This document shows, piece by piece, positions 13,396 through 32,970 of a stretch of 38,292 nt of DNA. The DNA lies in assembly GCA_018816555.1 (NCBI GenBank), contig JAHIVT010000163.1:1-38292 (forward strand), in the 5' to 3' direction. The notes beneath the pieces were generated by a model. It worked only from the letters and a program-made list of their open reading frames with translations, did not search any database and was not told the origin of the DNA. This stretch comes from Pseudomonadota bacterium (GTDB lineage: Bacteria; Desulfobacterota; Desulfobulbia; Desulfobulbales; SURF-16). The position numbers and the translations under genes are program-made. How positions within the stretch are numbered: the first letter of the stretch is position 1; each line of letters opens with the position of its first letter.

Positions 13396-16149
13396 TCACT
13401 CCTTGATCACCTGGTAGCCCAAGGTCTGATCGTCAAAGGTGATGGTATAGGTCCCTGCCCCCTGGCTAATGGGAATATCAGCGCCAAAAGGGTCTGCCTG
13501 CCCGTCCCGCATGGGGTTGTCGCCATAGTTGTCCGTCCAGTCGCCCCGCACGTCAAACTTGAACCGCTCCTCCGGATCGTCGCCGAACAGCACATGGTCG
13601 CCCTGCCAGGTATAATCACCCTTCAGGGTCATGGGTGTGACCTGCCAGTTGTTAAAAGTGCCCCGCAGGAACAGGGTGGGGAAATTGTGTTTGAAACGGG
13701 GTGTATAGCGGTCACGGACCACCGGGTAGGAGTCCCAGATATTGCGATCAGCCAGGGACCGCACCAGCTTGATGTACTCGGCGTGGGACCAGGCAAGGGG
13801 GGTGGCGCTGTCCGTGCCTTCACCCACCGTATAATGGTGGGTCGAGTTGTCGCCCACCCCGTCGAATACCTGTTCCGGCAGCATCAGCCCCTCATTGGCA
13901 AAATACTCCATGGCCCGCACATAGGCCTGCTTGAGTCCCTCCAGCTGCTGCTGGCTGATCTGGCCGTTGTTTGCGGCTTTAAGCCGTTCCAGTTCAAAAT
14001 GACCGCGCTCACCGGTAAAGATCGGCCAGACCCGCCCCCGCTGCAGGGAGTTGCTGCCGCTGTAATTACCGCCATTGTCCGTTCTTTCGCCGTAGCCGTC
14101 ATTGCCGTACCGCCGCCAGCCCGGAAATCCTGCCTGCCCGTCAAAGCTGAAGTCGTATTTTACCCGGAGATTCTCTTCCAGATCCATGGCATCCAGTTCG
14201 GGCAGTGAATCGAGCATATCAGGGTCATTGGCCGGCAGCACCCCGTAACGGACCAGCTCAAGGAAACCGGCATCCAGCACCTCCTTTTCATTGATGGCGG
14301 GTCTGCCGTTGCTGCCCTCGATCTTCTCCCCGTCATTGGGGTTGTCATTTTTGGTGATGCGCAGATAATATCTGCCGTTTTTCTCTCCGCCGGTAAAGGC
14401 ACCGTTGGTGGTGAACATGGTGGCGGCCAGCCGGCCGGTAAACTCATCGGCCTTGGCCTCATACCAGGCGGCGGCGCCCGGATCATGGACCTGGCGGGCG
14501 ATGTCCGCGGCCACGATCAGGCCGGTGATGATGGCCGCCTCGGTGGAGGGCGAATAGCCGGATTGTTCCTCCCAGCGTTCCATTTTGGTCCAGGGAGGCT
14601 CTACCGTATACTCCTCGACGCCGCCGGCAGAAGTCACCTTGATATCACCGCCGTTGGCCAGAAACTCGGCCGCCGGTTTCAGCATCTGCCAGTAACGCTC
14701 CACCAGCTCATCATCGGACAGCAGCCCATTTTTCCACAGCTTCCAGCCGAGCATGATGGGCATGGCGGTCTGATCCATCTGGATCTGCAGCCACTCCAGG
14801 TGGCCGTCTACCTGGGTTTTCTGCAGGAACCAGCCCGGCCGACTGCTGTCAATGGTGATGCCGTCCCGCTCCACATGGGTGGATTGCACCTGCACCCTGG
14901 GCAGGTAGTCAAAGGCGACCCGGGGCGTCTCCCTGTCCCCCAGGGCCAGCAAGGCCATGGCGCACTGGTAGAAATCCCGCGGCCAGACGGCCCGGTAGCC
15001 GGTGGCGTAATCGTTTGCCGGGGTGGTATCACCCCAGGGGATGGAAAGCGAGGCGATCAGGGCGCCCGGGTTCTGCTTGTCCTCCAGGGCTTTCAGCACC
15101 ATGGCGCTGGCATAGAGCAGTCTGCCGTTGTCCGCGGTGGAGTTGATCATCTCCTGCAGGCGGTAGAGACCGGCCAGATAATCCTCCCAGCCCACTGCCG
15201 ACCCGGCGCCGTTATACTTGGCAAGCAATGACTCATAGCCTTCCGCAAGCGAGGCATCAGCCGCGGCCATGGCCTCCCTGTGACTGGCGCCAAAACCCAC
15301 GGCCATATCAAAGACGGCGGTCTGACCGGCATTGAGGGGTTCCAGCTTGGCCATCATGGCCACGTTGCCGCCCCCGTCGTCGGCATATTCATAATCCCAA
15401 TCCATCACATGGTTGTCATTCAGATCCTGCCAGCCGTCTGACTGGCCGACAAAGCCGGCGGACATCTTGACAAAGCTGGCCGTGCTGCGCAGGCTCAAGA
15501 AAAGTCCATGCCCCTCCCTGGCGTTCAGATAGCCTTTGCCCTGCCGGTCACGGCCCACATAGGCCACATCGTAGCGGCCGGAATTAGCCATGTGCGGATT
15601 AATAAGAATATAGGGGGTGATATTGTCTTGGCTGGCGGTGAATCGAACGCGGATAAACAGGGTCTGCCGGTCCGGGTCGGTGAAGATGCTTTTTTCGATG
15701 ACGTACCTGTTGTCCCTGTCCGTGTTGGTCACCCGGTAAGCCAGGGAGGTGGGCCGACCGGCCGCGTCGGTGGTCAGATACTCTATCTGATGATCGGTGG
15801 CTGTTTTTTCCTCTGCAAAAAAACCGGGGCCGGTCACCAGAAACTGCAGATCCTTGATCTGGGCTGCATCGATCCGGCCATAGGCGGTTTCGGTAATGAT
15901 TCCCTGAGCAATGGAAAACCATACCCTGGAGATGGGCCCGCTGGGCCCGGTGTCACTGTACTGCCGATCCACATAGCGCTCAAACGAGGTGCCGATGCCG
16001 GTTTTGCCGGCATAGGTCCAGGTGGCGTTATCCTGGGCCTGTTGCGCGCCCGGCGCACCGCCACTGGCAAAGGCCGACAATGCGGCAACCAATCCCGCAA
16101 CAACTGCCACCACAAAAGCACAGCATGTTTTTTGCCTCATCATTTGCAT
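13396..16149 (-). CDS. Secreted GH15 glucoamylase/glucodextranase-type enzyme
   Basis: A 917-residue protein. The start at 16149 is preferred because GAGGAG sits just upstream. A signal peptide covers residues 1-30. Residues 45-310 form the beta-sandwich N-domain of bacterial GH15 enzymes. Residues 330-780 are the (alpha/alpha)6 catalytic domain, with WPRDFYQCAMALLALGD, the general-acid region MERWEEQSGYSPSTEAAI and the second catalytic region PLAWSHAEYIKLVRSL. The last 110 residues (LFLRGTFNNWQVTPM onwards) look like a starch-binding-type beta-sandwich. It should release glucose from alpha-glucans outside the cytoplasm. Upstream in the same direction is the formate dehydrogenase operon, apparently unrelated. 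Confidence 0.85.
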   Translation of the reverse strand: MQMMRQKTCCAFVVAVVAGLVAALSAFASGGAPGAQQAQDNATWTYAGKTGIGTSFERYVDRQYSDTGPSGPISRVWFSIAQGIITETAYGRIDAAQIKDLQFLVTGPGFFAEEKTATDHQIEYLTTDAAGRPTSLAYRVTNTDRDNRYVIEKSIFTDPDRQTLFIRVRFTASQDNITPYILINPHMANSGRYDVAYVGRDRQGKGYLNAREGHGLFLSLRSTASFVKMSAGFVGQSDGWQDLNDNHVMDWDYEYADDGGGNVAMMAKLEPLNAGQTAVFDMAVGFGASHREAMAAADASLAEGYESLLAKYNGAGSAVGWEDYLAGLYRLQEMINSTADNGRLLYASAMVLKALEDKQNPGALIASLSIPWGDTTPANDYATGYRAVWPRDFYQCAMALLALGDRETPRVAFDYLPRVQVQSTHVERDGITIDSSRPGWFLQKTQVDGHLEWLQIQMDQTAMPIMLGWKLWKNGLLSDDELVERYWQMLKPAAEFLANGGDIKVTSAGGVEEYTVEPPWTKMERWEEQSGYSPSTEAAIITGLIVAADIARQVHDPGAAAWYEAKADEFTGRLAATMFTTNGAFTGGEKNGRYYLRITKNDNPNDGEKIEGSNGRPAINEKEVLDAGFLELVRYGVLPANDPDMLDSLPELDAMDLEENLRVKYDFSFDGQAGFPGWRRYGNDGYGERTDNGGNYSGSNSLQRGRVWPIFTGERGHFELERLKAANNGQISQQQLEGLKQAYVRAMEYFANEGLMLPEQVFDGVGDNSTHHYTVGEGTDSATPLAWSHAEYIKLVRSLADRNIWDSYPVVRDRYTPRFKHNFPTLFLRGTFNNWQVTPMTLKGDYTWQGDHVLFGDDPEERFKFDVRGDWTDNYGDNPMRDGQADPFGADIPISQGAGTYTITFDDQTLGYQVIKE

Positions 16150-16322
16150 CCGTTCTCCTCTCAGCATCTTTATCAATTCAATTCATTGGTGCAGTCCACT
16201 CGCTGGGGGCGGAAACACCGGCCCTGCTTTGTCATTACCTTGTCTTAACAGAATGGAATCGAAAATTATAGAGCATTCATACCGGCGTGCGTTTTCGCCA
16301 CGGAGTCCCCAGAGACTGTGGT

Positions 16323-16423: not shown

Positions 16424-17269
16424 TCACCCCTGCAATTCCATCACATTGAGCTGTTTGAGTTCCTCCAGGGTGAATACCGGACCGTCTTTGCATACCAATT
16501 TATCATCCATGTGGCAGTGGCGGCAGATGCCAACCGCGCATTTCATATGGCGCTCCATGGTGGTGATGATGTCCTGGTCGGCAAAGCCCCGGTCCGCCAG
16601 TTGCCCCAGCACCGCCCTGATCATCATGGGCGGCCCGCAGAGCAGGGCCTTGGTCTCATGGGGGGCAAGGGTGCAGTGTCCCAGCAGAGCGGTGACCAGC
16701 CCCACCGCACCGTCCCAGCCAGGCTCTGCTCGGTCAACGGTGAGCTGGCAGCTGACATTGTCTCGCTGCCCCCAGGCCTGCAAATCCGCCTTAAAGGCGA
16801 TATCCGATGGGGTTCTGCTGCCGTAGAGGATGGTGATGCTGCGCTCATGGCCGGTGGCAAGACAGGTGTTGATCACCGACCGCAGCGGCGCAAGCCCGAT
16901 GCCGCCGGCCACAAACAGCAGATCCCTGCCAACAAGCGATGCCATGGGAAAGGGGCGTCCGTAGGGCCCGCGCAGGGCAAGCACATCCCCCTTATGCATG
17001 TCATGCATGGCCTCGGTCAGTTTGCCCGCCCGACGCACGCTCAGATGAACCGTGCCTCTATTGACCGGGGTGGAGGAAATAGAGATGGGCGCCTCACCGC
17101 AGTGGGGCACCGACACCATCAGAAACTGGCCGGGCTCATAGGAAAATCCGTCGTTATACTCAGGGTCGACAAAGGCGAGGACAAAGGTCTTGATCTGGGA
17201 ATTTTCTTCGATCACCTCTTGGATTTCCGCAGCCTTCGGCAGGTAGAGTTCTAGAAGCTGACTTGGCAT
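16424..17269 (-). CDS. FAD/NAD(P)-binding oxidoreductase subunit with [2Fe-2S] cluster (AsrB/HydG-like)
   Basis: A 281-residue flavoprotein of the ferredoxin-reductase superfamily, as in hydrogenase gamma subunits and anaerobic sulfite reductase subunit B. Residues 15-100 are the FAD-binding barrel (GFSYEPGQFLMVSVPHCGEA, ISISSTP), 110-235 the nucleotide-binding domain (LLFVAGGIGLAPLRSVI, ALLCGPPMMIRAVL), and the carboxyl end binds [2Fe-2S] through four cysteines in the CAVGICRHC...C segment. It should pass electrons between NAD(P)H and the Fe-S subunit. The ATG at 17269 is two bases after the upstream gene's stop; the longer frame is an overlap artefact. Last gene of the formate dehydrogenase operon. 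Confidence 0.85.
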   Translation of the reverse strand: MPSQLLELYLPKAAEIQEVIEENSQIKTFVLAFVDPEYNDGFSYEPGQFLMVSVPHCGEAPISISSTPVNRGTVHLSVRRAGKLTEAMHDMHKGDVLALRGPYGRPFPMASLVGRDLLFVAGGIGLAPLRSVINTCLATGHERSITILYGSRTPSDIAFKADLQAWGQRDNVSCQLTVDRAEPGWDGAVGLVTALLGHCTLAPHETKALLCGPPMMIRAVLGQLADRGFADQDIITTMERHMKCAVGICRHCHMDDKLVCKDGPVFTLEELKQLNVMELQG

Positions 17270-17271
17270 GA

Positions 17272-18318
17272 TCAGATATTCCCACAGCAGGTCATATTGA
17301 TAAAACGAACAATATCCGTGCCGCCGAAACAGATATTGACACACCGACCACAGCCCACGCAGCTGGGCCGGTTATCTTTTTTCACATCAAACTGCAGCTT
17401 GTGCCGGAACCGTTTCTCAATGCCCCGCATCTGCCGGTCCACCGGATTATGATCACCGGCCATGAGGGTAAAGCCGCTGAAGGTGCAGGCATCCCAAGCC
17501 CTGACCCGTTCCCCGTCACTGTCCGAGATCGGCTGGTCGCGGATGGTAAAGCAGGTACAGGTGGGGCAGATGTAGGCGCAGCCGCCGCAATCCTGGCAGC
17601 GCATGGACAGTTCCTCCCAGACCGACTCGGGCACCTCATCCTCGGCAAGCTTTTTAACGGCCTGGTCAAGATGAACCTGCAGTCTGAATTTACCCCGGGC
17701 CTCGAGAAAGGCCTGATACTGCGCCTTGACGTCACTCTCGGCTGCCTCGGCAAAAAACTGCCGCCAACTGCTGATGATCTCCTGCCCCCGGGACCGGTCG
17801 TACTCCACCAGAAAACGGTCGCCCAGGTCGGTGAGCTGCAGATCAAAGCCGAAATCGATAAATGGGCCGTTGCGGGTGGCATTGCAGAAACAGTTGGCAA
17901 AGGGCTCATTGCAGTTGAGCCCCACCAGGATGTTGTTCTGCCGCTTGTGCAGGTAATTCGGGTCCCTGGCATTTTTCAGGAAGACCACATCCATGTAAAG
18001 CAAGGCGGACATGTCGCAGGGCCGCACCCCGAAATAAAGAGTCGGGGCACTCTCGTCAGCCACCGTTTCAAAGTAATAGCTGTCCCTGGCCGGATTGTGA
18101 TAGGTGAAGAGCACCTCCTGCTGGGGGAAGAAAAAGCGCTTCAGAGAGTTCTGAGGTTGATTGTCAAGATCAATGTGGACCTTATCGAGGTTGTCGATCT
18201 CGGTAAAAAGCGTGTCACCGTGGCGGTTCTGCACCGGGGCGACGAGTTGGTGACTTTTCTTAAGCTTGCGAAGAAACGGCTGAAGATGATCTTTTTTGAG
18301 AATATATTTTTCCGTCAT
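17272..18318 (-). CDS. 4Fe-4S electron-transfer subunit (AsrA/HydB-like)
   Basis: A 348-residue protein of the family found as hydrogenase beta subunit and anaerobic sulfite reductase subunit A. The amino two-thirds are a domain typical of this group (TLYFGVRPCDMSALLYMDVV, NCNEPFANCFC). The carboxyl third has two [4Fe-4S] sites, CQDCGGCAYICPTCTC and CVGCGRCVNIC. Additional cysteines (GLNCNEPFANCFCNAT) may bind a further cluster. It links the catalytic subunit to the flavin subunit. The ATG lies four bases after the formate dehydrogenase stop, so the genes are co-translated. Cytoplasmic: no signal peptide or membrane helix. Confidence 0.85.
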   Translation of the reverse strand: MTEKYILKKDHLQPFLRKLKKSHQLVAPVQNRHGDTLFTEIDNLDKVHIDLDNQPQNSLKRFFFPQQEVLFTYHNPARDSYYFETVADESAPTLYFGVRPCDMSALLYMDVVFLKNARDPNYLHKRQNNILVGLNCNEPFANCFCNATRNGPFIDFGFDLQLTDLGDRFLVEYDRSRGQEIISSWRQFFAEAAESDVKAQYQAFLEARGKFRLQVHLDQAVKKLAEDEVPESVWEELSMRCQDCGGCAYICPTCTCFTIRDQPISDSDGERVRAWDACTFSGFTLMAGDHNPVDRQMRGIEKRFRHKLQFDVKKDNRPSCVGCGRCVNICFGGTDIVRFINMTCCGNI

Positions 18319-18322
18319 GGGG

Positions 18323-20353
18323 TCAGACCTTTTCTAAATGAACTGCGCAGACCTTGTATTCAGGGCATTGGGAGAAATGATCCTTGGCGCTGATGGTCAA
18401 GAGATTGATCGGCATCTCGCTGAAATGGAAGGTGGTATAGACCTCCCCAGTCTTCACCGTCTCGGTGAGCTGGGCCTTAACCTGCACCTCTCCCCGCCGG
18501 GAACGCATGCGCACCATGTCGCCGCTGCGCAGCCCGAGACGGCGGCCGTCCTCGGGATGGAGTTGCAGCAGGGCCTCGCCTGCCTCGCGGGACAGCAGCG
18601 GGCTGTGGCGACTCATGGTGCCGGTATGGTACTGATGGTAAATACGGCCGGTGATGAGCAGAAAGGGGTAATCGTCGTCCGGCAGCTCGGCGGGCGGTTC
18701 ATGGACGGCCGGGACAAAACGCCCCCTGCCCCTGGTAAAGTAATATTTGTGCAGAAAGGGAGTGCCGTCGTGTTCCCGGTCCCAGCAGGGCCACTGCAGT
18801 CCCCAGGAGTTTTCCAGCCGGTCATGATGCATGCCGCCGTAAATCGGTGCCAGCATGGCTATCTCCTCCATGATCTCCGCCGGGCTCTCATAATCCATGA
18901 CGTAACCCAGTCGCGCGGAGAGATCCATGATGATGTCGGCATCGGTGCGGCTCTGGCCCAGGGGCGGTATCACCTGACGCACCATCTGCACCCTGCGCTC
19001 CGAATTGGTGAAGGTGCCCGTTTTTTCGGCAAAGGAGGCGGCGGGCAGCACCACATGGGCGCGCCGGGCCGTCTCGGTGAGAAAAATATCGGCAACCAGG
19101 AGAAACTCCAGGTTGTCCAGGGTCTCTTCCACCTTGCTGATGACCGGGTCACTGAGCACGGGATTCTCGCCCATGATGAACATGGCCTTGAGCTGACCAT
19201 CCTTGCCGCCGTGGGTCATCTGCATGAGGGTGAGCCCGGGCTTGGGAGGCAGGGAAACATTCCAGGCCCTTTCGAATTTCTCCCGATAATCATCGTTATC
19301 AACCTGCTGGTAACTGGGAAAGACATTGGGCAGCGCCCCCATGTCGCAGGCACCCTGGACATTGTTCTGCCCCCGCAGGGGATCGACACCGGTGTCCTCC
19401 TTTTCCACATTGCCGGTCATCATGGCCAGGTTGGCTATGGACTGCACGTTGCTGGTGCCGCAGACATGCTGGGTGATGCCCAGGCAGTAGCAGATCACCG
19501 CCTTCTGGGCTCGACCATACAGCTGGGCCGCCGCACGGATCCGGGCCAGATCCACCCCGCAGATGCCGGCCGCCTCCTCCAGATCGAGCCGGAAGAGCAT
19601 ATCGCGCAGCCCGTAGAAATTCTCGGTGCGCATCTCGATGAAAAGATCATCGGCCAGGTTCTCATCAAGGATAACGCGCATCATGGCGTTTAACAGTGGG
19701 ATGTCGGTGCCCGGCCTGATAGCGAGATGGATATCCGCCCGCCGGGCCAGCAGGGTTCGACGGGGATCTATGACGATCAGCCTGGCGCCCCGGTCCATGG
19801 CCGTGAACATACGGCGGGCCACCTGGGGATGGGCCTCGCTGGTATTTGAGCCGATCACCAGAATCACCTGGGCGTTTTCGATCTCGTTGATCGAGTTGGT
19901 CATGGCGCCGCTGCCGAACGTGGTGGCAAGACCTGCCACGGTGGGTGCGTGTCAAAGCCGGGCGCAGTGGTCGATATTGTTGGTGTGCAGCGCGGCCCGG
20001 GCCAGTTTCTGCAGCAGGTAATTCTCCTCATTGGTGCACTTGGCCGAGCTGAGCAGACCCACGGCACTGCCGTTACTTTCACCGGCGACTCTTCCCAGTT
20101 CACGGGCCGCATAGGACATGGCCTCATCCCAACTGACCGGCGTGAGCCTGCCGTTTTTGCGCATGAGGGGCTCTTTGAGTCGAGACGGATGGTGGATGAA
20201 TTCATGCAGATGCCAACCCTTGACACAGAGATTGTTTCTGGAAACAGGGTGATTTCTGCTTGGCGATGAGCCCACCACACGACCGCGTTGTTCATGGAGA
20301 TAGACGCCGCAGCCGCAACCGCAGTAGACACAGGTAGTCAGAATGTCGTGCAT
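18323..20353 (-). CDS. fdhF: Selenocysteine-containing formate dehydrogenase catalytic subunit
   Basis: A 676-residue molybdopterin enzyme read through an in-frame TGA at 19952-19954 as selenocysteine 134 (context DHCARL-U-HAPTVAGLATTFG, matching the FdhF active site). Residues 8-43 hold the [4Fe-4S] motif C8, C11, C15, C43. The long central part has typical molybdopterin features (VIGSNTSEAHPQVARR, GQNNVQGACDMGALPNVFP), and the last 120 residues are the dinucleotide-binding domain. It oxidises formate to CO2 or the reverse. There is no Tat signal, so it is cytoplasmic. CGGAG sits before the ATG. With the two downstream subunits it probably forms an NAD(P)-linked formate dehydrogenase. Conventional gene callers would split it. 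Confidence 0.9.
19914..19954 (-). promoter_or_regulatory. bSECIS element and UGA (selenocysteine) codon
   Basis: The UGA is at 19952-19954. Twelve bases later on the minus strand comes the stem GTGGCA (19934-19939) with TGCCAC (19923-19928) and loop GGTCT (19929-19933). The loop has the GGUCU sequence known from the Escherichia coli fdhF SECIS bound by SelB. Confidence 0.85.
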
Positions 20354-20961: not shown

Positions 20962-21480
20962 ATGAAAAGAGTATTTTTTTGTCTTGCTTTGATGTTGTGC
21001 TTTTGCGCCATATCAACCGTTTCTTTTGCTGATACCAAAGAGGGGGAAAAGGCGTTCGTGACTGAGATGAAAACGGCCATTCCCGCTGACAGAATCATAT
21101 CGGTCGATGCACTTCATAGTAAATGGGAAAAAGCTGAAGGCAAAATAATTCTTCTTGATGTCCGCACCGAAGCGGAATTTGATTGTGGCCACATTATTAA
21201 CTCGAATAATATTGATTCCGGCCATGCCTACACCATGCCCAAAATATTCCCGGATGCAAATACCGAAATATATGTATACTGCAGGACCCAGCATCGGGCG
21301 ACCTACTTCACAGGCATGCTGTACAAATATGGCTACAAAAATGTCTACCTGGTTGAAGGCGGCATTGTCGGCTGGGCCGAGAAGGGCTATCCCCTAGTCA
21401 ACAAGTACATGGGAGAAATCAAAGTTACAAAGTATGAGAAAGAGTTGAAAGAAGAATACCAGCATAGAGACGACAAATAA
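20962..21480 (+). CDS. Periplasmic rhodanese-like sulfurtransferase
   Basis: A 172-residue protein. The signal peptide is MKRVFFCLALMLCFCAISTV with cleavage near residue 23 (SFA-D). Residues 45-150 form a single rhodanese domain: IILLDVRTEAEF, the active-site loop YCRTQHRA with nucleophile Cys107, and VYLVEGGIVGWAEKGYPL. It should carry persulfide sulfur outside the cytoplasm. The carboxyl tail is charged and probably helical. AGAGGT before the ATG gives a good ribosome site. It is followed by a gap with a mobile element and then the TauE/molybdoenzyme operon, which suggests a shared role in sulfur metabolism. Confidence 0.85.
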   Translation: MKRVFFCLALMLCFCAISTVSFADTKEGEKAFVTEMKTAIPADRIISVDALHSKWEKAEGKIILLDVRTEAEFDCGHIINSNNIDSGHAYTMPKIFPDANTEIYVYCRTQHRATYFTGMLYKYGYKNVYLVEGGIVGWAEKGYPLVNKYMGEIKVTKYEKELKEEYQHRDDK

Positions 21481-21546
21481 ATCTCTCTAACCGAAGAACT
21501 CAACTTTCTGATAGAACGATTTTCTCATGGCGGCTTACTGACCGCT

Positions 21547-21729
21547 ACAGGCTGTTGAAAAATGGGGGGATGCCCCAAAAAGGTAACCTCTGCTGAGACA
21601 AAACTCATGGCCTTCAGGGGAAACATGAGGAGACTCGGAGCAAAATACAGTTTACCTGACGTAAATGAACATTTTGCTCCTCATTTTGCCACAGTATCAG
21701 CGTAGTACGATAATCTTTCAACAGCCTGT
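21547..21729. mobile_element. MITE-like element, 183 bp, 14-bp terminal inverted repeats
   Basis: The ends are ACAGGCTGTTGAAA (21547-21560) and TTTCAACAGCCTGT (21716-21729), perfect inverted repeats. Inside, GGAGCAAAAT and ATTTTGCTCC form another inverted repeat around TTTAC-CTGAC-GTAAA, so the whole right half folds into a long hairpin. There is no coding capacity. No clear target duplication is seen. Confidence 0.6.
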
Positions 21730-22354
21730 TTCATACCGGCGCTCAACATGATGGGAACTCACCCCGATTGCTTTCCGTTTTTTCAGCCTGATACCATTAT
21801 CAAAAGAGGCTGATCCCTGAGGGATGTCCGGCGGGTTGTTTCCACCGTCAGAACGGTTGACTGGCGGACAGAATTCTCTATCGCACGTTGCAAAGTCAGA
21901 AAGTTGAGGTTAGAATATAACCCATCAATAATTATAAAGAATTATTTTGTCCTGGGATCAGGATTTTGTCGTTTTTACGAGAGGAAGATATTCCTTGACC
22001 GATAAGACTGAATCATTTGCTGCACCCTTTATCACAAAGCATTATTACAGTGATGCTTCGCCATCGAATTCTTTCCTCATTTCCTATTCAATATTTTCTT
22101 TTGATCACCTTTCTTCAGGCTTTTTTCATTTCCTGGCGATAATTGGCAACATCCTGCATCGCGTTTGTCATATACCCGCACAAACATACAGAGGAGGGAA
22201 AAGGAAGCACCGGAGACATATATTCCCAGTATAATTTTAGATGATGACAATAGCAGATGATGAAAACCGGGTCGGGCGGTTGCCTGTGGGCGGGATTTTT
22301 CCCTGCCAAAAAATAACCGTCCCGCATCTAAAAAGTAAGGTAAGGAGAGAAGCA
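21730..22354. other. Non-coding gap upstream of the TauE/molybdoenzyme operon
   Basis: This AT-richer stretch holds no gene I can support. Short frames exist on both strands but lack domains and ribosome sites. The last 40 bases carry the ribosome site GGAGAG for the next gene. Confidence 0.4.
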
Positions 22355-23653
22355 ATGAAAAAAACTGTCCGCTTGATGCCATTTTGGATGGTCTTCCTCG
22401 TATTTTTATTCCTCACTTCAGCGCGGTCAGCCAACGCGCAGACTCCTGCTGCGCCGGATGCCGCACAGGTTGAGCAAAGCGCCGCAGCAGCAGAGCCGGC
22501 AGCTCCGGAAATGGCGCAACCGGCATCAACTCCATCCAAACCCACAGTACAGATCGACAAGACCAGCCTGGAAAATGGCGGAGAGATCATCGTCACCGGT
22601 CAGGCCCCGGCCGGCAAGCCGGTCTTTCTCGAGGTATGGGCGGCGGACAAGACCGTCAGGGCCAATCGCTTCGATAACAAGAAGGATGCCAAAACCGGCA
22701 AAATCCCCTATGTTTTCTATCTTACCTACGATATGCCGGCCTATTACAAAATCTTCGTGCCCAAAACCGAGCAGCCGCAACTTGATGCCATTAAAAATGA
22801 CGGAGACGGCTGGAGCTATTCAAAGGCTCTGGAGACACTCGGCGCCGGCGCGGCCTATTCGGTGCCGGCCAAGATGTCCATTGAACGCTACAAAGCGACC
22901 ATCATGGCGAGCATCATCGGCAGCCGCGGAACCCAGATGCCCGCCATGGATGCCAAAGATAACAAAAAGAGTTCCATGCAGCTGGTCAAATCCCGCTTCA
23001 AGAGCGCTGACAAGGTTCTGGGAGCGGATATCGAGGTAAACCCGGACGGTACCTATCGGGCAGCGATTAAAATCCGCACCGGTCTTGCCCCTGGAAAATA
23101 CAAAATCATGGCCGTGGTGGATAAAGACCTGCGCAGTGACCCGGCTGAATTTGAAAATAAGATTAACTTTCCACTGGTTTATCTCAGCGTCGCCGGCACC
23201 AGCCAGAATATCTTCTGGCCATTTCTTCTCACCCTGGCCGTGGCCATTTTCGGCGTGCTCATGGGCGCGGGCGGCGGTTTTATTCTGAACCCCCTCCTGG
23301 TTTCTCTCTTCCCGCTTCCCCATACCGTGGTGGCGGGAACCGTCATGCCCACCGTGCTTTTTTCCCAGGCCAGCGGCATCTATAACTATTCAAAAATCAA
23401 ATTCATCAACTGGAAACTTGGCTGCACCATTGGCGCTTCAATGCTGCTCGGAGGATTCATCGGCCCGAAACTCACGGAACTCATTACGCTCGATCAGTTT
23501 AAGTTTGCCTTTGGCTGGATACTTCTCGTGCTGGCCGCCTTAATGTTATGGCAGACAACGCCCGGTTACCTTGCCAAAAACAAAAAAGAACAGGCCATCC
23601 TGAAAGAGTTCAAAAAAAGAGCCGAAAAAACGGCAAAAGCCAAACAGGCATAA
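22355..23653 (+). CDS. TauE/SafE-family half-transporter with N-terminal extracytoplasmic domain
   Basis: A 432-residue protein. The start at 22355 is set by GGAGAG 8 bases upstream; the longer frame is unsupported. Residues 1-28 are a signal peptide or anchor, and residues 30-65 are Ala/Pro/Gln-rich. Residues 65-275 form a soluble domain outside the cytoplasm with a beta-rich pattern (TVQIDKTSLENGGEIIVTGQ). The last 150 residues contain about four membrane helices with the TauE motif GVLMGAGGGFILNPLLVSLF and the closing helix GWILLVLAALMLWQ. This corresponds to only one of the two repeats in usual TauE/SafE sulfite or sulfoacetate exporters. The second repeat is the next gene, 15 bases on. 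Confidence 0.75.
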   Translation: MKKTVRLMPFWMVFLVFLFLTSARSANAQTPAAPDAAQVEQSAAAAEPAAPEMAQPASTPSKPTVQIDKTSLENGGEIIVTGQAPAGKPVFLEVWAADKTVRANRFDNKKDAKTGKIPYVFYLTYDMPAYYKIFVPKTEQPQLDAIKNDGDGWSYSKALETLGAGAAYSVPAKMSIERYKATIMASIIGSRGTQMPAMDAKDNKKSSMQLVKSRFKSADKVLGADIEVNPDGTYRAAIKIRTGLAPGKYKIMAVVDKDLRSDPAEFENKINFPLVYLSVAGTSQNIFWPFLLTLAVAIFGVLMGAGGGFILNPLLVSLFPLPHTVVAGTVMPTVLFSQASGIYNYSKIKFINWKLGCTIGASMLLGGFIGPKLTELITLDQFKFAFGWILLVLAALMLWQTTPGYLAKNKKEQAILKEFKKRAEKTAKAKQA

Positions 23654-23668
23654 TGGGAGGATACAGCG

Positions 23669-24058
23669 ATGAAGATTGATTTCTGGGAACAAGAATTTGA
23701 TGCAAATATGATCATAGGCTGCATCGGCGGTTTTCTCATTGCCGTCATGTCTTCCATGTTCGGATTCGGCGGCGGCCCATTCATGGTGCCGCTGATGACT
23801 GTTGGTCTCCGACTGCCCATGTACATTGTCGTGGGGAGCTCCCTGCTGGCGATTTTCTTTAATACATCCATGAGCAGCATCAGACATTATCAATTCGGCA
23901 ACTTCGATCTGATCCTGTTTCTGTGCATGTTCCCTGCCGCTCTGCTCGGCGGCTACATCGGACCGCAGATTGCCAAACGGGTAAGCCCTACTGTGGTCAA
24001 GCGGGTTGCCTGTGTTGGTCTCGTGCTGCTGGGCCTGAAACTGCTCGGACTTTACTAG
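23669..24058 (+). CDS. TauE/SafE-family half-transporter, second half
   Basis: A 129-residue membrane protein with about four helices. It carries the TauE repeat motif MSSMFGFGGGPFMVPLMTVG and the conserved LLGGYIGPQIAKRV segment, with a closing helix GLVLLGLKLLGL. Full TauE/SafE carriers have two such repeats in about 250 residues; here the first is at the end of the preceding gene and this is the second, so the two proteins probably assemble into one carrier. GGGAGG precedes the ATG. Neither protein shows a frame disruption, so the split looks natural. The likely cargo is sulfite or a related sulfur oxyanion, inferred from the family and neighbours. Confidence 0.75.
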   Translation: MKIDFWEQEFDANMIIGCIGGFLIAVMSSMFGFGGGPFMVPLMTVGLRLPMYIVVGSSLLAIFFNTSMSSIRHYQFGNFDLILFLCMFPAALLGGYIGPQIAKRVSPTVVKRVACVGLVLLGLKLLGLY

Positions 24059-24132
24059 CCGCGAGATTGGCTGCTTTCGATGCTAAAACGGCGATAAGAG
24101 TTTATGACACGACCTGAAACGGAGGAAAAGTA

Positions 24133-26250
24133 ATGGTCAAGAAGTCAGTATGGAGCATGTGCGGCATGTGCACTGTTCGCTGTCCGATCCGGGTTGAAAC
24201 CGAGGACAACAAGGTAACGTGGATCGAAGGAAACCAGCATCTGCTTAAGGGTGCCCTGTGCGCCAAGGGATCGGCGGGAATCGCGCTGTTAAATGATACG
24301 GAGCGTCCTTTGCGCCCCCTTATCCGCAAAGGCGGGCGGGGAGCTGGCCGCTGGGAAGAGGTGAGCTGGTATGCCGCGCTTGATTATGTCGCCGACAACC
24401 TGAAAACCATTATCAAGAAACATGGCCCGGAAAGCATCATGCTCAGCTGCCGGGGAGGCCCTTTCATCGATCTGCTCAATGCATTTATCCATGGCCTGGG
24501 CTCGCCTAACTTCACCAATCACGACAGCGGCTGCGGTCGCAATGTGCATCACGCCAGCCTTTCAGTCTATGGTTTAGGACGCAAGGGCTTTGTCTACGAC
24601 ATCAAAAAGAGCAAGCACCTGGTGCTCTTCGGGCGTAACATCCTTGCCTCCCTGCGTATCGCCGAAGTCAATCAGGTGCTCGACATGCTCGATGCCGGCG
24701 GCAAGATGACCTATGTTGACGTCAGGCAGTCCCTGACCGGTATCAAGGCCACCCGTTTCTTCCAGGTGCGACCCGGCACGGACTACGCCCTTGCCCTGGG
24801 TATTATCCACGAGGTGTTGAAGGAAAAGACCTATGACAAAGAGTTTATCGAAAAATATGTCAGCGATTTCGATAAACTCGAGGAATTCGTGGAATCCTAT
24901 ACCCTGGAGTGGGCCGCCAATGAGTGCGGCATCAAGGCGGGACGGATCAAGGACTTTGTCCAGGAGATTGCCGTAGACCGTCCCAAGGTTGTCTTTCACC
25001 CCGGCTGGATGATGTCGCGTTACCGGGATTCCTTTTACGCCAGCCGGGCCTTGCACATCCTCAATGTGCTGATGGGCAATGTCGAGGTCGAGGGCGGACA
25101 GATCTTTGCCAAGGGACCGGGAGATTGCGGCGTAAAGGAAATCAGAAGTCTGGACGCCCAAGTGCCGAAACCCACAGCCAAAAGGGCTGACGGCGTGGGG
25201 TGGAAATACACCCACTTTGACAAAGGTCCCGGACTTTTCCCCCTCTTCTATGAGGCGATGCAGACAGGTGAACCGTATCCGCTCAAGGCCCTTATCTGCG
25301 TACGGCATGATCCGTTTACCTGCTTCCCCGACCCCCAGGCGCAAAAGGAGGCGCTGGACAAACTCGACCTGCTGGTGTCCCTGGACACCCATTACAGTGA
25401 ATTCGGCTGGTACAGTGACGTTATCCTGCCCGAGTCCACCTATCTTGAACGCGACAGTCTCATCGCCACCCAGAAGGGACCGAAACCTCGTTTCATCATG
25501 CGGCGCAAGGCGGTGGAGCCCCAGCATGACACCAAGTCACTCAATGAGATCATCAAGCTCCTGGCCGACCGCCTGGGCATCGGCCAGTACTTTCCCTTCA
25601 CCACCACAGAGGAGCTATGGAACTGGCAGCTGGAACCCACCGGCTTTACCCTCCGTGATTTTGATGACAAGGGTTTTGTCTCGCTGGCGGACAAACCGGT
25701 TATGTTCGACCGCGCCAACCTTGACGGCAAATTCAAAACCCCGTCCGGCAAAATAGAAATCATCAGCCGGGTGCTGACCGATGCCGGCCTGCCTTCGCTG
25801 AAACCTTATGAGAGCCCGGAAAAACCTGACAAAGGCCAGTTCCGTCTTGTCTTCGGCCGCTCGCCGCTCCATGCCCACAGCCACACCATCAATAATCCGC
25901 TGCTGCATGAACTGATGCCGGACAACACTTTGTGGATCAACAAACGGCAGGCAGCAAAACTTGGCGTCACCGAAGGGGACTGGGTTGATGTCATCAGCGA
26001 TGGCGTTACCGGCACCATCAAGGCCCATGTCACCGACTTCATTCATCTGGAGGCGGTTTACATGGTACACGGCTTCGGCCGCCAGGTGCCCCTGCAGACC
26101 AGGGCCTATCACGCAGGCATTGCCGATCAGAAGCTGATGAAAGGGTTCTTGACCAAAATGGATCCCGCCGGAGGGGGATTATGCCTCTGCGAGTGTTTCG
26201 TCACCGTGCGGCGTAGTTCGAAAAACCCGAAACGAATGGTGGAATTATGA
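24133..26250 (+). CDS. Molybdopterin oxidoreductase, polysulfide/thiosulfate-reductase-like (PsrA/PhsA family), cytoplasmic
   Basis: A 705-residue catalytic subunit. Residues 10-43 hold the [4Fe-4S] motif C10, C13, C17, C43. The Mo ligand is most likely Cys134 in NHDSGCGRNVHH, consistent with PsrA/PhsA enzymes. Further family blocks are VNQVLDMLDAGGKMTYVDVR, VVFHPGWMMSRYRDS and the pterin-binding carboxyl domain LVFGRSPLHAHSHTINNPLL. Unlike typical PsrA and PhsA it lacks a Tat signal, so it acts in the cytoplasm. GGAGG before the ATG is strong. The stop overlaps the next gene's start (ATGA). Possible activities are polysulfide, thiosulfate or sulfite conversion; the sequence does not decide which. 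Confidence 0.8.
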   Translation: MVKKSVWSMCGMCTVRCPIRVETEDNKVTWIEGNQHLLKGALCAKGSAGIALLNDTERPLRPLIRKGGRGAGRWEEVSWYAALDYVADNLKTIIKKHGPESIMLSCRGGPFIDLLNAFIHGLGSPNFTNHDSGCGRNVHHASLSVYGLGRKGFVYDIKKSKHLVLFGRNILASLRIAEVNQVLDMLDAGGKMTYVDVRQSLTGIKATRFFQVRPGTDYALALGIIHEVLKEKTYDKEFIEKYVSDFDKLEEFVESYTLEWAANECGIKAGRIKDFVQEIAVDRPKVVFHPGWMMSRYRDSFYASRALHILNVLMGNVEVEGGQIFAKGPGDCGVKEIRSLDAQVPKPTAKRADGVGWKYTHFDKGPGLFPLFYEAMQTGEPYPLKALICVRHDPFTCFPDPQAQKEALDKLDLLVSLDTHYSEFGWYSDVILPESTYLERDSLIATQKGPKPRFIMRRKAVEPQHDTKSLNEIIKLLADRLGIGQYFPFTTTEELWNWQLEPTGFTLRDFDDKGFVSLADKPVMFDRANLDGKFKTPSGKIEIISRVLTDAGLPSLKPYESPEKPDKGQFRLVFGRSPLHAHSHTINNPLLHELMPDNTLWINKRQAAKLGVTEGDWVDVISDGVTGTIKAHVTDFIHLEAVYMVHGFGRQVPLQTRAYHAGIADQKLMKGFLTKMDPAGGGLCLCECFVTVRRSSKNPKRMVEL

Positions 26251-26699
26251 AAAAATACATGATCTATCTTAACTCGAAGCGGTGCATCGGCTGCCACGGC
26301 TGCGAGATCCACTGTAAGACCAATAAGGGACTGCCGGTGGGCCCCATTCTCTGCGAGATCAGCCAAGAACCCCTCAAAATGGTGGCAGGAGTACCCAAGA
26401 CCGAGTTCCGGTTCCGTTCCTGTTACCATTGCGAGGATCCAGACTGCGTGGCGGTCTGCCCCACCGGCGCCATGCAGAAACGGCATGACGGCATTGTTCT
26501 GGTTGACCAGGAGAAATGTATCGGTTGCATGGCCTGCATCGGCGCCTGCACCTGGGGCGTGCCCCAGCTCAATCCGGATACCGGCAAGGTGGTCAAGTGC
26601 GATTACTGTATGGACAGGATTGATGCCGGCCTTAAACCCGCCTGCGTCACCCGGTGCGCCACCCATGCCCTCAAATTTGTCACATTGCAGGAGATTTAG
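26247..26699 (+). CDS. Four-cluster 4Fe-4S subunit (PsrB/DmsB-like)
   Basis: A 150-residue ferredoxin-like protein with four [4Fe-4S] sites in the usual order of PsrB/DmsB/PhsB proteins: CIGCHGCEIHC near the start, CYHCEDPDCVAVCPTGAM, CIGCMACIGAC, and CDYCMDRIDAGLKPACVTRC at the end. It takes electrons to or from the molybdoenzyme, whose stop codon it overlaps. No membrane anchor subunit (PsrC, DmsC type) follows; the operon ends at a terminator about 100 bases on. The complex is thus probably soluble or docks with another partner encoded elsewhere. Confidence 0.85.
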   Translation: MKKYMIYLNSKRCIGCHGCEIHCKTNKGLPVGPILCEISQEPLKMVAGVPKTEFRFRSCYHCEDPDCVAVCPTGAMQKRHDGIVLVDQEKCIGCMACIGACTWGVPQLNPDTGKVVKCDYCMDRIDAGLKPACVTRCATHALKFVTLQEI

Positions 26700-30826: not shown

Positions 30827-30948
30827 AATTTCCCTGCCGGATCAACATAAAATCTTAACATCCCTCCTTTATGCTGGGAAGCAACAGAAGAAAAACTCCG
30901 GCAGACAAACCGGCACCTTTTCACACACAACCAACAAGGAGGTACAAC

Positions 30949-31488
30949 ATGAACACAATTCACCAACACAAACCGGGCGCACTAATAATTTTTCTGGTAC
31001 TCACTTTCTTTGCCGTCCCGGCCATGGCCGGGTCACATGCCCAGGACAACCGGCACGGCGAAGACTTCGGCAGGCACGAGGAGCACAGGGATCACCAATC
31101 ATTGTCTGGCCTGTGGCAGAATCCTGAAATTGCTGAAAAGCTGGGGTTATCGGACAAACAGATTACGGAGCTGAAAAATGCGGATTTCACCTTTCGCAAA
31201 CAACAGCTGGAATTAAAAGCCCAGCTTAACATGCTGCACCTGGAAATGGAAAAGGCATTCTCCGAGCAAAAATTAAATGAAACCGCCGTGCGTGAACTGG
31301 CCGGAAAAATGGCTGACGTGCAGGGGAAAATGTTCGTTCAGAATATTGAATCACGATTGGCGGCAACCAAGTATCTCACCGAGGAACAGCTCATAAAATT
31401 CCAGGCAGACTTCCCGCGACATCATGGGGGCAAGCCCCAGGACCAACAGCATGATATGGCACATCACGGCAACGAAAAAAGCCGATAA
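30949..31488 (+). CDS. CpxP/Spy/ZraP-like periplasmic stress protein
   Basis: A 179-residue protein. The signal peptide covers about 1-28 (LIIFLVLTFFAVPAMA-G). Residues 30-52 are His-rich (QDNRHGEDFGRHEEHRDHQS), and the tail is also His-rich (PRHHGGKPQDQQHDMAHHGN). The core is helical with two LTxxQ-type sites, LGLSDKQITEL and YLTEEQLIKF, as in the CpxP/Spy family, which are chaperones or metal-binding dampers of the CpxA or ZraS kinases. AAGGAGG 8 bases before the ATG is strong. It is divergent from the CpxR-like gene and next to a CpxR box, so it is probably under CpxR control. Confidence 0.8.
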   Translation: MNTIHQHKPGALIIFLVLTFFAVPAMAGSHAQDNRHGEDFGRHEEHRDHQSLSGLWQNPEIAEKLGLSDKQITELKNADFTFRKQQLELKAQLNMLHLEMEKAFSEQKLNETAVRELAGKMADVQGKMFVQNIESRLAATKYLTEEQLIKFQADFPRHHGGKPQDQQHDMAHHGNEKSR

Positions 31489-31514
31489 ATAAGAGAGGTT
31501 ACATCCCCTCTAAT

Positions 31515-31538
31515 CCCGGCGCATAGCCATGCGCCGGG
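31515..31538 (+). other. Intercistronic hairpin
   Basis: CCCGGCGCAT and ATGCGCCGGG form a perfect 10-bp stem with loop AGCC between the chaperone and cytochrome genes. No T-tract follows, so it more likely protects or processes the transcript than stops it. Confidence 0.5.
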
Positions 31539-31558
31539 CAACAAAAGGAGAATTTACT

Positions 31559-32113
31559 ATGAACAGGATGCAGAAGAGCGGTTTCGTATTACTCTTTTTC
31601 TCCCTCATGTCCCAATCCGGCTGGAATTCCTGCCTGGCTGATGATAATTCCCATCATGATACGCACCGCAAACACACGGAAAAGGAAAGCAAACATCATC
31701 TCCCCCCTGTTGCCAACCCCATTTATCAAGAAAGCTGCGGGGCCTGCCATTTCGCCTATCAACCGCAATTGCTGCCTGCGGCCTCCTGGCAGGCAATCCT
31801 CGACAACCAGACTGATCATTTCGGCGAGTCGCTGGAACTTAACTCAAACGCCCGCTCAGCCATTGCCGCCTATCTGCAGGCAAACAGCGCGGACAAATCC
31901 GGGGCCAAACGGGCGGTCAAGATCATGCGCAGCCTGGGAAACGGGGTGCCGCAGCGCATTACCGATATCCCATATATCAGGGAAAAACATCACGAAATCT
32001 CGGCACAGGTCTTCGCCCGCCCAGCCATCGCTTCCCCGGCAAATTGCCCGGCATGCCATACGACAGCCGAACAGGGGCTCTATGACGATGACTCGGTGAT
32101 GATCCCACAATAG
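31559..32113 (+). CDS. Diheme cytochrome c (DHC family), His-rich amino end
   Basis: A 184-residue secreted cytochrome. The signal peptide covers about 1-28. Residues 31-47 are His-rich (SHHDTHRKHTEKESKHH). Heme sites are C60-x2-C63-H64 (CGACH) and C163-x2-C166-H167 (CPACH). Between them the blocks SWQAILDNQTDHFGESLEL and ITDIPYIREKHHEI, and the ending AEQGLYDDDSVMIP, are characteristic of the DHC family of small electron carriers. The ATG has GGAG upstream. It is the second gene of the chaperone operon; the His-rich segments shared with its neighbour and with the sensor suggest a metal-linked role. Confidence 0.85.
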   Translation: MNRMQKSGFVLLFFSLMSQSGWNSCLADDNSHHDTHRKHTEKESKHHLPPVANPIYQESCGACHFAYQPQLLPAASWQAILDNQTDHFGESLELNSNARSAIAAYLQANSADKSGAKRAVKIMRSLGNGVPQRITDIPYIREKHHEISAQVFARPAIASPANCPACHTTAEQGLYDDDSVMIPQ

Positions 32114-32184
32114 CGAGGTTTGCCGCAACGGCAGGCAGTCACATTTCCGGGCAGCGGTGATATGACCGGTTGGGCCATGCACCC

Positions 32185-32970
32185 TTATGTCAATTTCTGC
32201 CAGCCGATCCTGTAAAAAATAACATAGAGCACCGGCACCATGATCAACGTCAGACCGGTGGCAAAGGTAAGCCCGCCCATGATGGTCACCGCCATTCCCT
32301 GAAAGAAGGGATCGATGACCAGGGGAATCATGCCGAGAACCGTAGTCATGGCAGCCATGCACACCGGCCGCAGACGACTGATCGCGGCGTCCATCACGGC
32401 GCGCAGCGGCTCCTTCCCTTCCCCCAGTTGAATATTGACCTCGTCGATCAGGACAATGGCATTTTTTATCAACATACCGGTCAGACTGAGCAATCCTAAA
32501 AGCGACATGAAGCCAAAGGGCGCCCCGAAGGAAAGCAGGCCCAACGTCACCCCGATGATGGCAAAGGGCACGGTGAGCAGAATGATAGTCGGCTGCCGCA
32601 GGTTATTGAACAGCATGATGATGATGAGTATCATGGCAATTGTCGGTGGCATCATGTTGTCCTTGATACCCTTCTGGGCCTTGGCGGAATTCTCTTTCTC
32701 CGCTCCCCAGTGCATTTCATAGCCAGGCGGCAGAGGGATTGCTTCGATCTCTTTTTCAACCCCCTGTTGCAGGTCGCAGGCCAGGCCGCCGAACTCGATA
32801 TTGCCCCTTACCCTGATAGTGCGTTTCCGGTTTTCCCGCATGATGAGGGAATTCTCCCACTTCGTTTCAAATCCGGAAACCACCTGGGTGATGGGTATGG
32901 TCTTGCGCAGGGCCGGGCTCCAGATTTGCACATCCTGCAGGTTCATTTTCTCAATTGATTTATTTTTCAG
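32185..32970 (-). pseudogene. RND efflux permease, 3' remnant (CusA/AcrB superfamily)
   Basis: About 260 residues match only the carboxyl quarter of an RND permease (normally about 1040). It starts in the periplasmic part (VQIWSPALRKTIPITQVVSG, MHWGAEKENSAKAQKG) and continues through the last membrane helices (LLTVPFAIIGVTLGLLSFGA, SLTGMLIKNAIVLIDEVNIQ, RLRPVCMAAMTTVLGMIPLV). The frame continues upstream of the ATG at 32946 to about 32970, then meets a stop near 32985. The proton-relay helix and drug-binding regions are missing, so the product cannot be a working pump. No membrane-fusion or outer-membrane partner gene is nearby. A translated fragment is possible but it is best seen as a decayed gene. 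Confidence 0.8.

Follow-up and report, generated by a model that had tools for sequence, protein, structure and literature searches.

A split TauE-type carrier linked to a predicted cytoplasmic PhsAB-like molybdoenzyme in Desulfobacterota: a candidate unit for thiosulfate uptake and cleavage

Introduction

The described systems nearest to the four genes considered here, tauN-tauC-molA-molB, are the thiosulfate reductase PhsABC (Salmonella; sequences used from an E. coli plasmid and Proteus) and the polysulfide reductase PsrABC (Thermus, Wolinella). PhsABC is the nearest sampled kin of the catalytic subunit MolA and shares its cysteine metal ligand, H130 and R391-H392; MolAB differs in lacking an A subunit exported by twin-arginine translocation (Tat), in having no PhsC in the operon, in its B subunit of 150 amino acids and in the TSUP carrier that belongs to the unit. 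PsrABC is of the same superfamily, with the Cys ligand and the AB core, and provides the best PDB match of MolA, but it has a Tat signal and PsrC, whereas MolAB has neither. The genes lie in a 38,292-nucleotide stretch of DNA (hereafter the window; contig JAHIVT010000163.1 of assembly GCA_018816555.1), which is one contig (C44) of a 4.93 Mb genome in 183 contigs. The closest named relative at this locus, among the best 80 of 316 relatives kept, is the metagenome-assembled genome Desulfurivibrio sp. SURF_16, with a MolA identity of 93%.

PhsAB pairs lacking PhsC have already been published (PMC9751629; PMC13047784) and phsAB is listed in PMC7117923; according to PMC9751629, the function of PhsAB had not been analysed. 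The PhsAB of Desulfobacterota, i.e. Desulfolithobacter PhsA-1/2, Dissulfurimicrobium hydrothermale LGS26_09210 and that of Ca. Desulfobulbus rimicarensis, probably belong to the same family as MolAB. LGS26_09210 fits the molA of genome G122, which lies at 1.94 Mb as the tag number predicts, while the Desulfolithobacter and Ca. D. rimicarensis proteins are likened to MolAB by description, not sequence. For these published proteins no account of a carrier link, a split carrier or the residues discussed below was found. The MOLY cluster likewise contains a molybdoenzyme AB pair in Desulfobacterota, but MolyAB is predicted to be extracellular and comes with a TorD chaperone (PMC12998232), whereas MolAB is without Tat signal. 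MOLY and YTD clusters have been proposed for sulfur disproportionation (PMC12998232); none of TorD, YedE, TusA and DsrE, by which they are recognised, was found among the 29 window proteins scanned.

Here we describe the linkage of a PhsC-less PhsAB to a carrier, the fission of that carrier into two genes, and a link to complex I (nuo) genes in deeper homologues, for none of which a description was found among the open-licence papers that the searches listed. The first-pass annotation of this DNA had found no described system to match; this holds for the carrier link and fails for PhsAB without PhsC. We tentatively propose, from sequence comparison, that TauNC-MolAB takes up thiosulfate and cleaves it reductively in the cytoplasm, a reading to which we give slightly less than even weight.

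Results and discussion

A predicted cytoplasmic enzyme of the PhsA lineage

MolA lacks a Tat signal and is predicted to be cytoplasmic. Its first Fe-S cysteine is already residue 10 (FS0 cysteines 10, 13, 17 and 43), and the open frame opens five codons before the ATG, too short a stretch for such a signal; the molA frames of five further genomes (G087, G122, G176, G329 and G365) likewise span just 702–711 codons. No NrfD/PhsC-like anchor is adjacent at the locus, where the carrier lies upstream and a porin downstream. The rhodanese, split TauE carrier and two-subunit molybdoenzyme reported as neighbours in the first-pass annotation were confirmed by their family matches (Table 1), as was its view that the enzyme has no Tat signal and no adjacent membrane anchor.

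Homologues were collected from 153 scanned stretches; of 316 relatives the best 80 were kept, and 40 stretches of <60% identity and 16 of 99 matches were chosen non-randomly. With two stretches lacking molA and six duplicates set aside, this left 145 distinct homologues, all from Desulfobacterota; loci are numbered L and genomes G, with G000 the window's own. Cys134, at the metal-ligand position, is present in all 145, as are R107 (where PhsA has K and the Tat-type, PsrA-like paralogue of the window's genome has H) and H130 (PhsA H, paralogue A). R391 is kept in 143 (PhsA R, paralogue G), H392 in 138 (PhsA H, paralogue Q) and W292 in 142 (PhsA H, paralogue R). We take these five positions to face the substrate, and at four of them (107, 130, 391 and 392) the family is PhsA-like rather than paralogue-like. 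His145 and Arg332 of PsrA, residues near the metal, align with Arg107 and Trp292 of MolA, so that this His and Arg are absent.

A maximum-likelihood tree with 31 members of the MolA family and only nine outgroups united the family with enterobacterial PhsA in one clade (ultrafast bootstrap 99, SH-like approximate likelihood ratio test 94), and the Tat-type paralogue fell outside it. Thermus PsrA was the best PDB match of that paralogue at 489 bits, against 350 bits for MolA. Given this clade and the PhsA-like residues, we place MolA nearer to PhsA than to PsrA; of the earlier description as a polysulfide/thiosulfate-reductase-like enzyme, the thiosulfate side is retained and the label 'PsrAB-like' is better replaced by PhsAB-like, cytoplasmic. 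MolB matched TIGR02951 at 136 bits, below the cut-off of 214, and 16 of its 17 cysteines form, by reading, four ferredoxin-type sets.

Cytoplasmic SoeA and bacterial SreA with a Cys ligand do exist (PMC10100899), and MolAB might accordingly reduce polysulfide or sulfur in the cytoplasm, or act as a sulfite dehydrogenase of the Soe type, with sulfite imported by TauNC. We consider this very unlikely in view of the PhsA clade (in a tree that held neither SoeA nor SreA), the residues above and the missing neighbouring anchor subunit.

A carrier divided between two genes

TauN aligns to profile positions 2–114 of PF01925 and TauC to positions 127–237, at 70 and 89 bits and thus both above the cut-off of 32.6, as expected of TSUP carriers; TauNC differs from these in being split in the central loop and in carrying a large periplasmic domain in front. 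Judged from its Shine-Dalgarno sequence, tauN starts best at ATG 22355, and tauC begins 15 nt past the tauN stop. The halves occur as separate genes at 22 distinct loci (L188 and L192 being stretches without molA), and a GGAG-type ribosome site precedes 21 of the 22 second halves. The stop codon is TAA, TGA or TAG, gap lengths vary, and at L100, L173, L178 and L184 the halves are out of frame with each other. Elsewhere the carrier is a fused homologue of ~565 residues that has a periplasmic domain at its N-terminus and whose second half, to which TauC aligns, opens with the same FWG motif. Since the halves have separate ribosome sites, differ in stops, gaps and frames, and are also found apart at L172 and L173, which branch deeply, the split is an old, true gene fission in the central loop, which bears out its earlier description as a split carrier. 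Sequencing error was rejected as its cause on account of the 21 ribosome sites, the three stop codons and the four out-of-frame gaps.

The N-terminal domain of TauN (~215 residues) was modelled mostly at a predicted local distance difference test score of 80–95 as an MG2/Ig-like beta-sandwich (best Z 8.9 over 92 residues). No Foldseek match of this domain had an E below 0.0085, a fold search with the fused homologue gave no useful match, and the modelled MG2/Ig-like arrangement implies no function.

Linkage of carrier and enzyme

Within the window, the four genes are separated by only 15, 74 and −4 bases, which suggests a single operon. Linkage was scored in the 97 of 145 homologues with full flanks (at least 4 kb on each side of molA); kinship among the homologues means that these numbers are not independent of one another. 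Of the 97, 52 have a TSUP gene within 4 kb of molA, i.e. 34/43 at ≥64% MolA identity (the close group), 8/30 at 50–63% and 10/24 at <50%. Among 60 linked loci of the close group, including those with short flanks, TSUP is upstream on the same strand in 42, downstream on the same strand in 12, and on the opposite strand upstream in five and downstream in one. TSUP is found on either side and either strand; the linkage has outlived rearrangement. On a 154-row tree, of which 123 rows were scored, its state changed 11 times or more, and deep branches have it too (L170–L173, L175 and L176 within 4 kb; L174 at 4.4 kb).

With seven TSUP genes in the 4.93 Mb of the window's genome, we estimate the chance of one falling near a given locus at roughly 2%. 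TSUP was found at none of seven control loci of twin-arginine paralogues (G000, G215, G122 and G521) within the available stretches; all seven carry a twin-arginine motif ahead of the Fe-S cysteines, and the set is small, with one flank short. Of six other TSUP loci in the window's genome, the TSUP profile recovered four, so some absences, the control included, may be misses. Carrier and enzyme belong together, as first supposed, and no gene for arsenate or selenate, the linkage that would have argued for an unrelated substrate, was present among 20 annotated neighbour representatives. In the window's genome TSUP genes also lie near PPDK-like proteins at L227 and L232 (contigs C81 and C108), as they do in a kinase/TSUP cluster of relatives.

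Substrate and direction of transport

We would read tauN-tauC-molA-molB as a unit that exploits a sulfur oxyanion from outside the cell, thiosulfate being the likeliest. TauN and TauC would together form a single carrier, with a beta-sandwich domain in the periplasm, and bring the anion inward. In the cytoplasm MolAB would split it reductively into sulfite and sulfide at a molybdenum or tungsten bis-pyranopterin guanine dinucleotide (bis-PGD) centre with a Cys ligand, the sulfite passing to Dsr or Apr/Sat routes. MolB would draw its electrons from a soluble low-potential donor. We infer the single operon and the pairing of the halves, and likewise the donor, soluble rather than menaquinol because there is no PhsC; the inward direction, because the substrate must reach a cytoplasmic enzyme and the cell uses sulfite; and thiosulfate itself, from PhsA kinship, the residues and two published observations. 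In D. alaskensis a putative PhsAB made a slight contribution to fitness, strongest on thiosulfate (PMC4215793), and overexpression of O. marinus PhsA in E. coli raised H2S production from thiosulfate (PMC10989961); either protein may lie outside the MolA family.

Several points weigh against this proposal. The best NCBIfam match of MolA is PhsA PRK15488 at 511 bits, under the cut-off of 694; identity to PhsA is ~31%; and R107 and W292 depart from its K and H. TSUP proteins move various anions, in both directions. No TSUP gene lies within 4 kb at nine of the 43 close full-flank loci, including that of Dissulfurimicrobium hydrothermale (L177), an organism that disproportionates elemental sulfur (S0), sulfite and thiosulfate and has MolA. 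In Desulfolithobacter, where PhsAB come without C, these proteins were scarce when thiosulfate was disproportionated (0.12 and 0.06%) and one of them reached higher levels under sulfate reduction; the study's authors doubt that they play a major role (PMC9751629).

AprA, an enzyme at the core of dissimilatory sulfate metabolism, is encoded in the window's genome and scores above its curated cut-off, and sulfite is a useful intermediate in such a cell. This bears on the sulfite export put forward in the first-pass annotation, which survives as one option: MolAB might cleave thiosulfate that enters by another route while TauNC expels surplus sulfite. A TSUP gene linked to the enzyme would fit that arrangement, and PMC3949148 and PMC5840216 cite Cupriavidus TauE as an exporter of sulfite; yet an A. 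fulgidus tauE homologue was read by its authors as a possible importer, the sequence contains nothing that fixes direction, and the value of sulfite to an AprA-bearing cell speaks for keeping it. We hold export to be possible but unlikely.

The locus had also been thought to suit sulfur disproportionation or sulfide oxidation. Desulfurivibrio alkaliphilus AHT2 (G215; genome PMC5016858) disproportionates S0, and D. alkaliphilus oxidises sulfide (PMC5516251). No MolA was found in strain AHT2, whose best matches are 30–31% identical and both have twin-arginine motifs, and S0 disproportionation and sulfide oxidation thus do not need MolAB, which weakens the case for a general role in either. Should thiosulfate uptake and cleavage prove wrong, the locus would still represent a widespread but unassigned molybdoenzyme-carrier pair of the sulfur cycle, one that many sulfate reducers share.

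A link to complex I in deeper homologues

Below 63% identity, 22 of 54 full-flank homologues (14/30 and 8/24 in the two lower identity classes) have nuoD no more than 4 kb from molA, at L138–L141, L144, L145, L147, L148, L154, L156, L159, L160, L165–L167, L169, L172, L195, L196, L207, L208 and L210. The row at L145 and L148 reads kinase, regulator, TSUP, EMC3-like protein, molA, two molB, nuoABCDHIJKL, and no NuoE, F or G was found among the genes from molA to nuoL, all labelled, at L145, L148 and L154. In 12 of the same 54 (L142, L143, L146, L149–L151, L155, L170, L171 and L174–L176) the molA neighbourhood within 4 kb includes a large flavoprotein that combines GltD-like with ferredoxin domains, a possible input of NAD(P)H. 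Neither nuo genes nor the flavoprotein were found within 4 kb at any of the 43 close loci, and the window's molAB has no nuo beside it.

For the NuoEFG-less complex I of D. dismutans the authors leave the donor open (PMC12142623), and in Desulfolithobacter the tags of PhsA-1/PhsB-1 (GF1_30490/30500) just precede those of Nuo proteins (GF1_30510/30520) detected, as was NuoB, only during thiosulfate disproportionation (PMC9751629). The nuo link would supply such a donor, and it fits the Desulfolithobacter tag order. These observations also favour a reversed reaction, in which MolAB joins sulfite and sulfide to thiosulfate with release of low-potential electrons, the carrier exporting thiosulfate or importing sulfite and the deeper homologues feeding complex I without NuoEFG. 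With nuo at none of the close loci it is not the window's own case; we regard it as quite unlikely. A broader view, in which MolAB is a cytoplasmic plug-in module that forms or cleaves thiosulfate with a dedicated carrier and whose deeper homologues replace NuoEFG at an 11-subunit complex I, for electron input or output, strikes us as improbable, if a little less so. If true, it would couple proton pumping directly with the chemistry of thiosulfate, taking the place of PhsC. Carrier link and nuo link together name concrete genes for how PhsC-less PhsAB works and for what might feed the NuoEFG-less complex I of a sulfur disproportionator, questions that can thus be addressed in culturable strains.

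Other frequent neighbours of molA are a PAS histidine kinase (18 of the 43 close full-flank loci), a response regulator of the sigma-54 type, a receiver protein and, in the membrane, a protein of 165 residues and EMC3-like proteins. The set of TSUP, EMC3-like protein, kinase and sigma-54 regulator may resemble the D. vulgaris operon DVU2957-2964 (PMC4641369). Membrane proteins of ~210 residues adjoin TSUP and molA at L121 (9341–9973), L102 (2828–3538) and L148 (10117–10752), one of them with a weak EMC3/TMCO1 match.

Locus layout and neighbouring genes

Table 1. Genes and repeat of the tauNC-molAB region, in window positions
Feature	Position	Strand	Evidence and remarks
Rhodanese, secreted, single-domain	20962-21480	+	PF00581, 65 bits
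Inverted repeat, 17 nt, 94% complementary, resembling a miniature inverted-repeat transposable element (MITE)	21547-21729	no strand	bounds ~183 bp, 149-base core
TauN: signal peptide, periplasmic beta-sandwich domain and first TSUP membrane half	22355-23653	+	PF01925, Shine-Dalgarno
TauC: second TSUP membrane half	23669-24058	+	PF01925, own Shine-Dalgarno
MolA: molybdenum/tungsten bis-PGD catalytic subunit, 705 aa, PhsA lineage	24133-26250	+	PF04879/PF00384/PF01568
MolB: four-cluster [4Fe-4S] electron-transfer subunit, 150 aa	26247-26699	+	start overlaps molA stop

The rhodanese translation shows, by reading, a Sec-type signal peptide and a CRTQHRA loop. Its gene is separated from tauN by ~875 bp that include the MITE-like inverted-repeat stretch, of which one partial further match was found in the genome. 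Linkage of the rhodanese recurs at only three distinct loci among 137 stretches (the window, L190 and L057, L189 being the L057 stretch), and we no longer count it as part of the system, as the first-pass annotation had; it is probably a separate unit and a possible accessory. Downstream of molB come a porin and a Cpx-like kinase/regulator; these were rejected as parts of the system, and linkage of the porin is confined to the window, L190 and L057/L189.

A 13-pair stem lies between molB and the porin. The same scan gave 18 terminator-like sites against 10.0 in shuffles (standard deviation 3.2), more than expected, and 10 promoter-like sites against 8.1 (standard deviation 2.8), about equal; Rfam returned no match at gathering scores.

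On the reverse strand at 18323–20353 lies a formate dehydrogenase-like alpha subunit gene that is read through a single in-frame TGA (ARL-TGA-H) and probably encodes a selenoprotein; genes for iron-sulfur and FAD/NAD-binding subunits come next, at 17272–18318 and 16424–17344. This divergent formate dehydrogenase starts ~600 bases from the rhodanese and is suggestive only as an electron source. At 30871–32946 are a CpxP-like protein, a dihaem cytochrome c (PF09626) and an AcrB-type pump open reading frame that matches only the C-terminal positions 785–1020 of 1021 and is probably a truncated gene. A glucodextranase-like protein of glycoside hydrolase family 15 (GH15) is encoded on the reverse strand at 13396–16176.

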